This document shows positions 15,941 to 45,258 of a stretch of DNA of 64,000 nucleotides, in pieces. Where the stretch lies: positions 124,001 through 188,000 of the forward strand of contig JANQRZ010000006.1 of NCBI GenBank assembly GCA_028284265.1. Direction: 5' to 3'. Made by a program: the position numbers and the translations under genes. The notes under the pieces are model-generated. The model saw only the letters and a list, made by a program, of their open reading frames with translations, searched no databases and was not told where the DNA came from. The DNA is from Rhodothermales bacterium (GTDB taxonomy: Bacteria; Bacteroidota; Rhodothermia; Rhodothermales; JANQRZ01). Within the stretch, counting starts at the first letter, position 1, and every line of letters begins with the position of its first letter.

Positions 15941-17857
15941 ATGACTCATTCTGACGCGTTTGACGTGATTGTGGTCGGTGGCGGGCACGCCGGAGCCGAG
16001 GCAGCGCATGCCGCCGCCCGTATGGGAGCGCGCACGCTGCTCATCACGATGAGCCTTGAAGCGCTCGGCCGGATGTCGTGCAATCCGGCCATCGGCGGGA
16101 TCGGCAAAGGACAGATCGTCCGCGAGATCGATGCGCTCGGCGGGTTGATGGGTCGCGTGGCCGACCACTCGGGCCTCCAGTTTCGGATGCTGAACCGCAG
16201 CAAAGGCCCGGCGGTGTGGAGTCCCCGCGCCCAGAGCGACCGCACGCTCTATGCCGCTGCTGTCCGCGAAGTGCTCGAAGCCGCCCCTACCCTCTCCTTC
16301 CGCCAAGACATGGCGACAGAGGTGCTCGTCGAGGATGGTCATGTGATGGGCGTGCAGACCCAGACCGGGCAGGTCTTCCGCGCCCGGTGCGTCATTCTCA
16401 CGAGCGGCACCTTCCTCAACGGCACCATCCATATCGGTGAGCAGCAGCACGGCGGCGGTCGCGCTGGTGAGCGTGCGGCGACCGGCATCAGCGCAAGCTT
16501 GGAGAAGCTCGGCTTCGAGGTCGGGCGACTCAAGACTGGCACTCCACCCCGTGTCGATGGCCGCACAATCGACTACGCCGGACTCGAAGAGCAGCCCGGC
16601 GACGAGACCCCTAGCCCCTTCTCGTTTATGACCGATGCCCTCCCGACGGAGCAGCGGTCCTGCTGGCTGACCTACACCTCCCCTGCCGTTCACGAGACAC
16701 TCCGCGCGGGATTCGACCGAAGCCCGATGTTTGCCGGGCGGATTCAGGGCGCGGGCCCGCGCTACTGTCCGTCGATTGAGGACAAGATCGACCGCTTCGC
16801 CGACAAGGACCAGCACCAGCTTTTCCTCGAACCGGAGGGCTGGACCACCTACGAGGTCTACGTCAACGGCTTCTCGACCTCGCTGCCCGAGGAGGTACAG
16901 ATTGAGGCGATGCGTCAGGTGCCGGGTTTGGAGCAGGTGCATATGCTTCGCCCTGGCTATGCCATCGAGTACGACTACTTCCCGCCCTATCAACTCCGTT
17001 ACAGCCTCGAAACCAAGTCCATCGCAGGCCTCTTCTTCGCCGGACAAATCAACGGAACGACGGGCTATGAGGAAGCCGCTGCACAGGGCCTCATCGCGGG
17101 CATCAATGCCGTACAGCGGTTGCGCGATGCCGAGCCGCTCGTCCTCCCGCGCTCGCAGGCCTATATCGGCGTACTCGTCGATGACCTCGTGGCGAAAGGC
17201 ACCGAGGAGCCCTACCGTATGTTCACATCGCGCGCCGAGCACCGGCTCCTGCTCAGGCAGGACAACGCCGACCAGCGCCTAACGCAACTGGGCTACGACC
17301 TCGGCCTCGCCTCACGTGAGCGCCTCGACCGGATGCACCAGAAGCAGGCAGCGCTGACAGCCACCATCGGCGCGCTTCGGGAAACGCCTGTGACACCCAG
17401 CGAAGTCAACGGCTTCCTTGAATACGTCGGTACTGCCCCGATCGCCACCCCCGTCCGGCTTGATCGACTAGTCCCCCGTCCTGAGATCTCGCTTACAGCC
17501 TTGCTACAGGCTCTTGGACGGGAAGACCTCGTGACGGACGCTCCGGGCTTGGAGCCAGTTGAGCACCTTGCCGAGGTGGAACTCAAGTACAAAGGCTACC
17601 TCGACCGGGAGCAAGAGATGGTCGAGAAAATGCACCGGATGGAGAGTTGGAAGATCCCTCCCGGCGTGGAGTACAACGCCATCAGCAGTATCACATTGGA
17701 GGCGCGCGAGAAGCTGACGCGCATTCAGCCCGACACACTGGGCCAGGCCTCGCGCATCAGCGGCGTCAGCCCCGCCGACATCTCGGCACTCATGGTGCTG
17801 CTCAAAAGCAGTCGTTTCACGCCGAACGAGACGACTGTTTCACGTGAAACGGCATGA
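15941..17857 (+). CDS. mnmG: tRNA uridine-5-carboxymethylaminomethyl synthesis enzyme MnmG
   Basis: FAD- and NADH-dependent partner of MnmE in U34 modification. The 638-residue length is typical. The dinucleotide fold VVGGGHAGAEAA is at residues 11-22, followed by MSCNPAIGGIGKGQ, KGPAVWSPRAQSDR, and the GidA signature GTFLNGTIHIGEQ and PPRVDGRTIDY. The C-terminal helical region (YKGYLDREQEMVEKM, IPPGVEYN) binds MnmE and tRNA. The ATG at 15941 immediately precedes the conserved FDVIVVGGG. The last codons form a parS-like site, and the stop lies 14 nt inside the rsmG frame if rsmG starts at GTG 17844. Confidence 0.97.
   Translation: MTHSDAFDVIVVGGGHAGAEAAHAAARMGARTLLITMSLEALGRMSCNPAIGGIGKGQIVREIDALGGLMGRVADHSGLQFRMLNRSKGPAVWSPRAQSDRTLYAAAVREVLEAAPTLSFRQDMATEVLVEDGHVMGVQTQTGQVFRARCVILTSGTFLNGTIHIGEQQHGGGRAGERAATGISASLEKLGFEVGRLKTGTPPRVDGRTIDYAGLEEQPGDETPSPFSFMTDALPTEQRSCWLTYTSPAVHETLRAGFDRSPMFAGRIQGAGPRYCPSIEDKIDRFADKDQHQLFLEPEGWTTYEVYVNGFSTSLPEEVQIEAMRQVPGLEQVHMLRPGYAIEYDYFPPYQLRYSLETKSIAGLFFAGQINGTTGYEEAAAQGLIAGINAVQRLRDAEPLVLPRSQAYIGVLVDDLVAKGTEEPYRMFTSRAEHRLLLRQDNADQRLTQLGYDLGLASRERLDRMHQKQAALTATIGALRETPVTPSEVNGFLEYVGTAPIATPVRLDRLVPRPEISLTALLQALGREDLVTDAPGLEPVEHLAEVELKYKGYLDREQEMVEKMHRMESWKIPPGVEYNAISSITLEAREKLTRIQPDTLGQASRISGVSPADISALMVLLKSSRFTPNETTVSRETA
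17836..17851. other. parS centromere site at the mnmG/rsmG junction
   Basis: TGTTTCACGTGAAACG matches 15 of 16 bases of the conserved chromosomal parS consensus TGTTTCACGTGAAACA. The position at the gidA/gidB (mnmG/rsmG) junction near the origin is typical. It lies in the 3' end of mnmG and contains the GTG that may start rsmG. ParB would load here and organise the origin domain; parA and parB are not in this window. Confidence 0.8.
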
Positions 17858-18509
17858 TGCTCTTCGCAAGATGATAGACCCCTCCACTGCACAACCCCTG
17901 AACGCCCACCAGCGCGAGAGGCTGATTGAGCTAGAGGCGATGGCCCTGCGCCTGAACCAGCGGTTGAACCTGTACTCCGAAGAAAGCACTCAGCATTTCC
18001 AAGAGCGCCACCTGCTACACAGCCTCACACTCGCGTCGCATCCTTTTCCGCCTGGCGCTCATGTTGTGGACTGGGGCACCGGCGGCGGTATGCCGGGCCT
18101 CCCCCTCGCCATCGCGTTCCCCGAGACCACTTTCCATCTCGTCGACTCGGTTGGCAAAAAGATCAAAGCCGTCGAGACGATGGCACGCCGTCTCAAACTG
18201 TCGAACGTACACGCCTATCACGGGAGAGCCGAGGCGTGGGAAGGGCAAATCGCCTACAGTGTTTCACGTGCAACAGCGTCCCTCTCTACGCTATGGGCCT
18301 GGCATAGGCGCTGCTTCTCCCCCCTCAATGTCCCTTCCAGCTACTGGAAGCCCGGCCTGATCTGCCTAAAAGGTGGCGATTTGGACAGCGAGATCGCCTC
18401 TCTCAACGCTGCCTATCCCGGCTTGACGGTTGAATGCTCCCCCCTTCTACCCATCCTGAAAACTCCCTACTTCCAAGACAAGGTGATCGTCGCAGTCAGC
18501 GAAGGATGA
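17844..18509 (+). CDS. rsmG: 16S rRNA (guanine-527-N7)-methyltransferase RsmG
   Basis: SAM-dependent methylation of G527 in 16S rRNA. The SAM-binding loop HVVDWGTGGGMPGLPLA lies at about residues 73-89, followed by HLVDSVGKKIKAVE; the C-terminal strand is YFQDKVIVAV. The usual DxGsGaGfPG appears here as DWGTGGGMPG. Two starts are possible: GTG at 17844 inside the parS site, overlapping mnmG (221 aa), or ATG at 17871 (212 aa). A second parS-like site lies within the gene at 18260. The next gene is convergent, 10 nt away; the parA-parB pair often found after rsmG is missing. Confidence 0.93.
   Translation: MKRHDALRKMIDPSTAQPLNAHQRERLIELEAMALRLNQRLNLYSEESTQHFQERHLLHSLTLASHPFPPGAHVVDWGTGGGMPGLPLAIAFPETTFHLVDSVGKKIKAVETMARRLKLSNVHAYHGRAEAWEGQIAYSVSRATASLSTLWAWHRRCFSPLNVPSSYWKPGLICLKGGDLDSEIASLNAAYPGLTVECSPLLPILKTPYFQDKVIVAVSEG
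18260..18275. other. Second parS-like site, inside rsmG
   Basis: TGTTTCACGTGCAACA matches 15 of 16 consensus parS bases, with one A to C change in the right half. It lies 424 nt from the first site; chromosomal parS sites commonly cluster like this. Confidence 0.65.
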
Positions 18510-43120: not shown

Positions 43121-43978
43121 CTAGTGGTACAGAAACAGCGGAATCTCGGCTTCGTCGATGAGACCGGTGGTGGTGGAGCCGAAGAGGAACTTCGACAGGC
43201 CGGTCTTGGCGTGCGCTCCGGCCACGATGAGGTCGGCGCGGCTGCGGTCGGCGTGGTCGAGGAGCACGTCTTTCGGGCTTTGTCCGGCGATGCTGGTGCC
43301 CACCACCGAGGCAAAGCCGTAGGCGTTGAGGTACGACGTAGCCAAGCCCAGCATCAGCTCGGACTCAGAGCGGGCGTTGTCATCGTCATCGCGGACGTTG
43401 ACGATTTCCACCTCGACGTGCTCGGTGTCAAAGGCGTTTAGCTCAGCGAACTTCTGCATGGCGCGGGCCGCGCTCACGCTCCGGTCGTAGGCCACCATCA
43501 CCCGGCGGATCGGGCGGTAGGCTGGCTCCACGATGAGTGTTGCCGCCGCACCCTTCTCGACCACCTCGTCCATGCAGTGGGTGCGCTTGTCGCGGTCGGG
43601 ATAGAAAAAGTGCGACTCAGCTCCGGCGATGAGCAGGTCGTGGTACTTCATATCCTCGACGATCCGCTCGAACGGGACGCCTTCCCCGATGTGGTCGCTC
43701 CCGTGCTGGACCCCAGCGCGTTCGATCTCATCAGCGAAGCCACGAAGGAGGTGCTGCGCTTGGGCGCGGGCTTCAGAGGAGAGTTTGTGCTGGAGCTTCT
43801 CGGCATAGTACATCGCTCCGAGGCCGGCTCCCGAAGACTCAGACTCAATGCCCTTGCTATCCACGAGCGCGAGGCCTGTGACTTCAGCATCGCACCGCTG
43901 GGCGATCTCTATGGCATAGCGCGTAGCAACGGAAGTGTCAGAGTCGAAGTCGAGAGCAACGAGGATGCGCTTGAGCAT
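43121..43978 (-). CDS. Tandem universal stress protein (UspA x2)
   Basis: A 285-residue protein with two Usp domains. The first starts MLKRILVALDFDSDTSVATRYAIEIAQ (1-145). The second runs from RRVMVAYDRSVSAARAMQKFAEL (about 155) to the C-terminus, with the ATP-binding pattern GAHAKTGLSKFLFGSTTTGLI (G-x2-G-x9-G-S/T). The first domain lacks this loop, so only the second may bind nucleotide. The ATG at 43978 is preferred; the open frame upstream runs into the origin region. It is transcribed away from the putative oriC. The 142 nt between it and the RtcB-like gene start show only short inverted repeats. Confidence 0.88.
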   Translation of the reverse strand: MLKRILVALDFDSDTSVATRYAIEIAQRCDAEVTGLALVDSKGIESESSGAGLGAMYYAEKLQHKLSSEARAQAQHLLRGFADEIERAGVQHGSDHIGEGVPFERIVEDMKYHDLLIAGAESHFFYPDRDKRTHCMDEVVEKGAAATLIVEPAYRPIRRVMVAYDRSVSAARAMQKFAELNAFDTEHVEVEIVNVRDDDDNARSESELMLGLATSYLNAYGFASVVGTSIAGQSPKDVLLDHADRSRADLIVAGAHAKTGLSKFLFGSTTTGLIDEAEIPLFLYH

Positions 43979-44051
43979 GGTAAGTCGGGAGAAGAGGGCG
44001 GAGAAGGGGAAGGTACGGCACACACGCTGTTCCGTCTGCTCAAGGCTCGAT

Positions 44052-44068
44052 TGGTATATGCTGGTATA
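44052..44068. repeat. TGGTATA direct repeat beside the origin unwinding region
   Basis: TGGTATA at 44052-44058 and 44062-44068, one helical turn apart. It lies between the usp start and the AT-rich segment and could be a usp promoter element or a site for an origin-binding protein. Confidence 0.35.
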
Positions 44069-44093
44069 CACGGTTGATCTGTCTTCCACACGC

Positions 44094-44160
44094 TCTATTT
44101 ATATAGAGTATTTAATAAATGATGTTAATGTAGTAGTAGGGCCTGTGGACATGTGGAAAA
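44094..44160 (+). other. Origin basal unwinding system: AT-rich region, DnaA-trios, DnaA boxes
   Basis: In + strand order: an AT-rich segment with the inverted repeat CTCTAT-TTAT-ATAGAG, then TAGTAGTAG (44131-44139, three DnaA-trio units), a GGCC spacer (40-43), and two adjacent boxes TGTGGACAT (44144-44152) and TGTGGAAAA (44152-44160). The order and relative orientation equal the unwinding element described for Bacillus subtilis, where DnaA moves from the boxes onto the trios of one strand. Confidence 0.75.
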
Positions 44161-44187
44161 GCAAGAAGCGAACACGATGTGGAGACG

Positions 44188-44196
44188 TGTGCATAA
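44188..44196 (-). promoter_or_regulatory. DnaA box (exact TTWTNCACA match)
   Basis: TGTGCATAA on +, TTATGCACA on -, an exact fit to the relaxed DnaA-box consensus. It lies 28 nt beyond the first box pair. Confidence 0.7.
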
Positions 44197-44322
44197 GAAG
44201 GCGGGGTTATCCGCGCTTCTGTCCACAAGCGAAGGTCGCTACAAAGCTGCGAGAAGGGGCTTACATGGTGATTGAGTTACGTTGTCCACGTATCCACGCT
44301 CGTCCACATTGAGGAGGTGGGT

Positions 44323-44361
44323 TCATCCACACGATGTCCACCGCCGTACCCCTGTGGATCA
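44323..44361. promoter_or_regulatory. DnaA box pair, inverted (one mismatch each)
   Basis: TCATCCACA at 44323-44331 (+) and TGTGGATCA at 44353-44361 (- as TGATCCACA). Each differs by one base from TTATCCACA. Weaker TCCAC-core sites lie at 44219, 44282, 44290, 44300 and 44334. Confidence 0.6.
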
Positions 44362-44453
44362 GTGTTGGATATCGCGTGGACGATTCGGGCTTGACAAACA
44401 GCTTTTTCTGGCAGGTCGGCGAGGCATCAAGATTTTCCCCGACGTGTCCACCG

Positions 44454-44484
44454 TTCTCCACAATCTTCTCCACAGGGTGGAAAA
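44454..44484. promoter_or_regulatory. DnaA box cluster at the right end of oriC
   Basis: TTCTCCACA occurs at 44454-44462 and again at 44466-44474 (12-nt spacing, same strand), followed by GGTGGAAAA at 44476-44484 on the opposite strand. Each is one base from TTATCCACA or TTTTCCACA. Confidence 0.65.
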
Positions 44485-44595
44485 ACTCTTTGGTTGCGCG
44501 GTACGAGGCTGAGGTCATAGCACGTTCATCGAACATGGCAAAACACGACGGGCTTCCTCTCGTTAGAGTACAACCACGCTGCACCCCGACCTCGC

Positions 44596-45258
44596 ATGGT
44601 TCGCCTCCTCTTCCTGCTGACGCTCCTCGTTCTTCCGTTCGATGTACTCGCACAGTCCAGCGAGTATGACGTGACGATTGCTCGTGTCAAGTATGGCGGT
44701 GGCGGCGACTGGTACAGCGGCGAAGAGTCGCTCCCGACCCTCCTCGCCTTCGTCCGCCAGAACACGCTCCTCGACGTGGCTCCGAGCGAAGACATCGTCG
44801 AGCTGACGAGCGACAAGCTGTTCCAGTATCCGTACCTCTACCTCAACGGGCACGGCACGGTCCGCTTCACCGACCGCGAGGCGGAGCGGCTGCGGCGGTA
44901 TCTCCTCGGCGGCGGCTTCCTTCATGTCAACGACGACTACGGCCTTGACGCCACGCTCCGGCAGGAGATCAAGAAGGTGTTCCCCGACCAGGACTTCGTC
45001 CGTGTTCCGTTCGATCACCCTATATATAGCGCGCACTTCCAGTTTCCGAATGGCCTCCCCAAAATCCACGAGCACAACGGCCAGCCCGCCGAAGGCCTCG
45101 GCCTGTTCCACGAAGGCCGACTCGTTGTCTTCTACTCCTACGAGAGCGACCTCGGCGATGGGTGGGAGCCGGAGGGCGTTCATGACAACCCGCCGGAGAA
45201 GCGGCAGGCCGCGCTACGGATGGGCACCAACCTCCTCGTTTACGCCATGACCAACTGA
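44596..45258 (+). CDS. DUF4159 domain secreted protein
   Basis: A 220-residue protein with signal peptide MVRLLFLLTLLVLPFDVLA (cut before QSSEYD). The rest matches the DUF4159 family: IARVKYGGGGDWYSGEESLPTLL, PYLYLNGHGTVRFTDREAERLRRYLLGGGFLHVNDDYG, FDHPIYSAHFQFPNGLPKIHEHNG, and a C-terminal GVHDNPPEKRQAALRMGTNLLVYAM. The domain is related in fold to glutamine-amidotransferase-like proteins and often occurs with BatA/VWA/MoxR genes, which are not adjacent here. The function is unknown. It is the first gene to the right of the putative origin, and a DUF4359 gene follows at 4 nt. Confidence 0.85.
   Translation: MVRLLFLLTLLVLPFDVLAQSSEYDVTIARVKYGGGGDWYSGEESLPTLLAFVRQNTLLDVAPSEDIVELTSDKLFQYPYLYLNGHGTVRFTDREAERLRRYLLGGGFLHVNDDYGLDATLRQEIKKVFPDQDFVRVPFDHPIYSAHFQFPNGLPKIHEHNGQPAEGLGLFHEGRLVVFYSYESDLGDGWEPEGVHDNPPEKRQAALRMGTNLLVYAMTN

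Follow-up and report, generated by a model that had tools for sequence, protein, structure and literature searches.

A 617-bp intergenic gap (43979..44595) in the 64,000-nucleotide stretch of DNA analysed here (the window) is almost certainly the chromosomal replication origin, holding the whole of oriC, and the DnaA-trio element within it is probably its basal unwinding system (BUS). The element itself is a further case of a known and widely predicted kind. The part likely to surprise a specialist is a change from TAG to TTG at the same site in related genomes, where a function of the altered array as trios is putative.

Trios and tandem boxes in the intergenic gap

The gap is flanked on the left by a universal stress protein gene (Pfam Usp; 43121-43978, minus strand) and on the right by a DUF4159 gene (Pfam DUF4159; 44596-45258, plus strand). 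On its plus strand, from left to right, an AT-rich segment (~44097-44130) is followed by three DnaA-trios, TAG-TAG-TAG (TAGTAGTAG, 44131-44139), by the GC-rich spacer GGCC (44140-44143), and by two tandem TGTGGA hexamers on the same strand as the trios (44144-44149 and 44152-44157; joint string TGTGGACATGTGGA, 44144-44157). Scored as 9-mers by their mismatches to TTATCCACA, the trio-proximal box ATGTCCACA (44144..44152, minus strand) has two mismatches, and the second tandem box TTTTCCACA (44152..44160, minus strand), 12 bp from the trios, has one. The trios number exactly three, the in-phase triplets upstream (ATG, TTA, ATG, ATG) having no middle A. The preliminary description had claimed a complete DnaA-trio element made of these four parts, and each was confirmed at these positions.

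The arrangement stands out from its surroundings. In the 64-kb window TAGTAGTAG occurs once against 0.04 expected, and the tandem box motif TGTGGANNTGTGGA also occurs once, with none in 100 shuffles. Ten of the 36 TGTGGA sites of the window fall within the 390 bp of 44085-44474, and six of its seven boxes with at most one mismatch fall within 44060-44500. Apart from the tandem pair, a single box TCTTCCACA (44082..44090, plus strand) lies beyond the AT-rich element, and to the right of the pair follow GTCTCCACA and TTATGCACA on the minus strand and TTATCCGCG on the plus strand (44178..44215). A middle cluster (44219..44361) has plus-strand boxes at 44219-44227, 44282-44290, 44290-44298, 44300-44308 and 44323-44331 and a minus-strand box at 44353-44361, and a distal cluster (44454..44484) has TTCTCCACA twice on the plus strand and TTTTCCACC on the minus strand.

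Published BUS rules ask for at least three 3'-NAN-5' trios, co-oriented boxes, a box with at most two mismatches and a spacer of at most 16 bp, and a second box with at most four mismatches. The element agrees with all of them, having three NAN trios, boxes of two and one mismatches, and spacers of 4 and 12 bp; the better-matching box is the distal one, and its 12-bp spacer falls within the published peak of 10-13 bp. The survey behind that peak predicted a BUS in 85% of 2070 origins, so that its presence in this group was to be expected. As in the oriC of B. subtilis (PMC6669920, PMC8287927, PMC10721633), an AT-rich side, 5'-TAG trios, a short GC-rich spacer and two co-oriented boxes, the distal one being the better match, follow each other in the same order and on the same strand. 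This supports the B. subtilis-like order and orientation that had been claimed for the element, and the spacer and the number of trios fit as well.

Unlike the origin of B. subtilis, which has six trios, this one has three and lies ~150 kb from dnaA. The DnaA proteins also differ. Arg202 and Asn187 of B. subtilis DnaA hydrogen-bond the G and the A of the trio, respectively, and belong to a pocket formed with Glu183, Ile190, Ile193 and Glu228; none of these residues is universally conserved according to the source paper. At the positions of Glu183/Asn187/Ile190/Ile193/Arg202/Glu228 the organism's own DnaA has E, T, V, I, S and E; with Thr and Ser at the Asn187 and Arg202 positions, the chemistry by which the trios are read may therefore differ.

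Identity of the origin

The tests of origin identity (skew, box density, instability and parS) are correlational, and the related genomes are non-independent samples. No 40-mer in the surrounding 400 kb is less stable than the DNA unwinding element (44096..44135), whose nearest-neighbour dG is -38.4 kcal/mol against -43.8 for the runner-up. Over 400 kb of its own contig the gap is also the densest cluster of DnaA boxes, with 10 hexamers per 500 bp where the next best has 3. The cumulative GC skew of this draft contig has a shallow, broad minimum at ~150-210 kb, and the site lies at 168.1 kb. Two parS-like sites with one mismatch each (17836-17851 and 18260-18275, plus strand; 0.01 expected) are found 26 kb from oriC, in genes that we take from their sequences to be mnmG and rsmG.

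In two relatives with single-contig chromosomes, the GC skew flips at the equivalent element. In G012, which carries a TAG array, the sign changes in the region of the 2374- and 2394-kb samples, and the element lies at 2394.1 kb; in G014, which carries a TTG array, a local minimum of the cumulative skew spans 10-15 kb, and the element lies at 13.0 kb.

The dnaA gene is located at 318.3 kb of the contig, ~150 kb away from the trio site, and in relatives with both on one contig the distance between origin and dnaA ranges from 8 to 230 kb. An origin beside dnaA was considered and rejected, as the dnaA locus has two scattered hexamers in 4.6 kb and no box cluster. Nor does DUF4159 serve as an anchor for the origin outside the organism's family: all 60 relatives have the gene, and its adjacency to the origin is confined to families f1 and f12. 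Separately, one close relative (G002:C16:71050, L097) carries about a dozen tandem TGTGGACG units away from oriC, possibly a DnaA-titrating or simple-repeat locus.

Conservation of the array and its probable mode of action

In three relatives (G001, G002, and G059 from another family) the same gap holds the same array, with TAGTAGTAG, a short spacer and tandem boxes. Identity across the gap in the three closest genomes extends to only 48% of positions. The longest invariant run, 44143-44157, comprises the tandem boxes and a single base of the spacer; among the longest are also other boxes and TAGTAGTAG, which is invariant in G000, G001, G002 and G059. Among the other boxes, 44085-44091 beyond the AT-rich element, 44189-44196 and 44206-44215 (in three relatives), several boxes of the middle cluster, and 44466-44474 and 44476-44484 in the distal cluster are invariant.

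More widely, of 114 genomes of the order, 22 have the pattern TAGTAGN{3,9}TGTGGANNTGTGGA, in one place each, while the reversed control gave none. We take this order to be Rhodothermales, G014 being presumably Salinibacter ruber DSM 13855 and G018 presumably Rhodothermus marinus DSM 4252. In a sample of 394 genomes of the phylum, the 16 that match the strict pattern all belong to the same class (16/16), presumably Rhodothermia. So as not to select for TAG, we also searched for tandem boxes alone, splitting the sites by AT-richness further upstream and adding from the pattern searches four sites missed by the filter on the outermost base. TAG stands 3-5 nt from the box in 58 of 84 AT-rich tandem-box sites versus 2 of 27 others (Fisher p ~1e-8, with the kinship of the genomes ignored), and a 4-nt spacer is typical across the order. 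AT-rich sites without TAG are mostly chance-like sites in genes, or are of the TTG type. Conservation of TAG units in homologous gaps, which the preliminary description had proposed as a check, is seen in G001, G002 and G059 and beyond them; in the group at large it holds for many relatives but is not universal, TTG taking the place of TAG in Salinibacter.

G032 and G072 (L139, L140) were examined as trio-less candidates and rejected, their trios being on the other strand of the same Usp-side gap, in the order AAGAAGTAGTAG-GGC-TGTGGA. The origin of both is GC-rich, and the AAGAAGTAGTAG trios with ~70 bp around them are near-identical between the two, the rest having diverged.

By analogy with experiments in other bacteria on DnaA binding, base capture and melting, DnaA would bind the tandem box pair beside the GGCC spacer, and its AAA+ domains would extend as an oligomer across the spacer onto the TAG-TAG-TAG strand, capturing bases of each trio, presumably two per trio. 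The adjoining AT-rich segment would then open for helicase loading, and the remaining boxes to the right would build a larger orisome. The view of the preliminary description on how the element works is, on this analogy, probably right. Counting against a BUS are the presence of only three trios, the Ser/Thr contact residues, TTG in some relatives, and the shallow skew.

The strongest competing explanation, which we nonetheless regard as unlikely, is that the gap is a true oriC in which the TAG strand is captured by DnaA at more distant boxes through looping, the recruitment to the single-stranded unwinding element known from E. coli and Thermotoga maritima. The eTrio of T. maritima likewise has three tandem TAG repeats in its unwinding element, bound by looping-type recruitment (PMC10316083), and here many further boxes lie 40-340 bp away. 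In T. maritima, unlike here, a further trio-like stretch lies between the repeats and the nearest box, and the DnaA that binds the repeats sits at boxes 3-5. The E. coli oriC also resembles the present one: its AT-rich element adjoins a same-strand box of the TGTGGA type, and it lies away from dnaA. In contrast to E. coli, the window has TAG trios, and neither TTGT nor TTATT occurs on the plus strand of 44090-44139; moreover, throughout the class a conserved tandem box pair keeps a constant distance of 3-5 nt to the trios, which is the geometry of a BUS.

Far less probable is an oriC for which AT-richness and boxes are enough and the TAG repeat goes unread. The TTG found at the same place in Salinibacter and its relatives does indicate that TAG is not indispensable in the order, but TAGTAGTAG is invariant where its flanking bases vary, and the 3-base period is kept even in the TTG replacement. 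A chance arrangement, or a promoter or regulatory site that is not an origin, would suit an intergenic gap upstream of two divergent genes, and is scarcely credible given the chance counts, the skew minimum, the extreme of instability, and the recurrence of the array beside other genes in many genomes.

TTG arrays in Salinibacter-type genomes

The Salinibacter genus (g14) and genera g39-g40 have TTGTTG(TTG/TTA) repeats beside the boxes, in the place and register of the TAG array (loci L110-L116, L141-L143 and L148-L153, from G014 and relatives). At the trio site the array reads TTGTTGTTG, some genomes having TTA; the middle base is T, the 3-base period is retained, and the single-stranded DNA motifs of E. 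coli, TTGT and TTATT, are present in these arrays (TTGTTATTATT). The TTG site of G014 is a real origin, by skew and box cluster. Within the family of Salinibacter, g41 and g42 are genera that retain TAGTAGTAG, and G077 has TTG-TTG-TAG-TAG-TAG, a sequence suggesting that a TTG unit already present distally has spread. In a DnaA tree (where G108 was counted as TTG), the Salinibacter-type genomes cluster and adjoin the TAG genus g41 (support 93/70).

The DnaA residues that contact the trios showed no covariation with trio type, being identical in G077 (TAG) and in G074, G075 and G014 (TTG), and Thr187 is found with both TAG and TTG arrays. Genomes with Asn187 and a known site have one or more middle-A trios close to the boxes, an association confounded by ancestry. 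In seven Salinibacter-type genomes a shift of register (TTAG or CTAG, followed by a 3-nt spacer) makes a single TAG readable, and these may use a single trio. Two DnaA copies are found in nearly all Salinibacter-type TTG genomes, and one in the TAG genera g41 and g42. A second DnaA, ~43-57% identical to the query DnaA, was observed in many genomes of the order (Salinibacter-type and families f2, f5, f9 and f14; L216-L226).

In B. subtilis, changing the middle A to T in trios 1-3 impairs initiation, and 'deviant trios' without a middle A were only suspected in the 2021 BUS survey. Our literature search, with supplements and subscription papers outside its reach, found no described array of this kind. 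DoriC annotates trios in bulk, so that individual predictions for Salinibacter-type genomes may exist. The TCG/TTG array of G108 was considered as a second deviant-trio case and rejected, since its four boxes form a hairpin on a contig of 3.8 kb. In this locus (G108:C83, L267) the hairpin consists of two inverted DnaA-box pairs beside the TCG/TTG repeat, and the site does not obviously look like a chromosomal origin.

We consider it possible, while leaning slightly against it, that the trio code changed within a single order, TTG/TTA replacing the TAG of sister genera with no change in the DnaA residues at the positions that contact trios in B. subtilis. Should the TTG arrays act as trios, origin recognition would not rest universally on the middle adenine and its contact with residue 187, and unwinding elements of the B. 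subtilis and the E. coli type would have a natural intermediate in the TTG/TTATT array. Sister genera with TAG or TTG at the same site and with the same contact residues provide a natural comparison for what DnaA reads in single-stranded DNA, one that bears on whether trios without a middle adenine function. For this little-studied lineage, the locus places the replication origin away from dnaA, where it is usually sought, and gives the DnaA-trio a further, sharp phylogenetic footprint.
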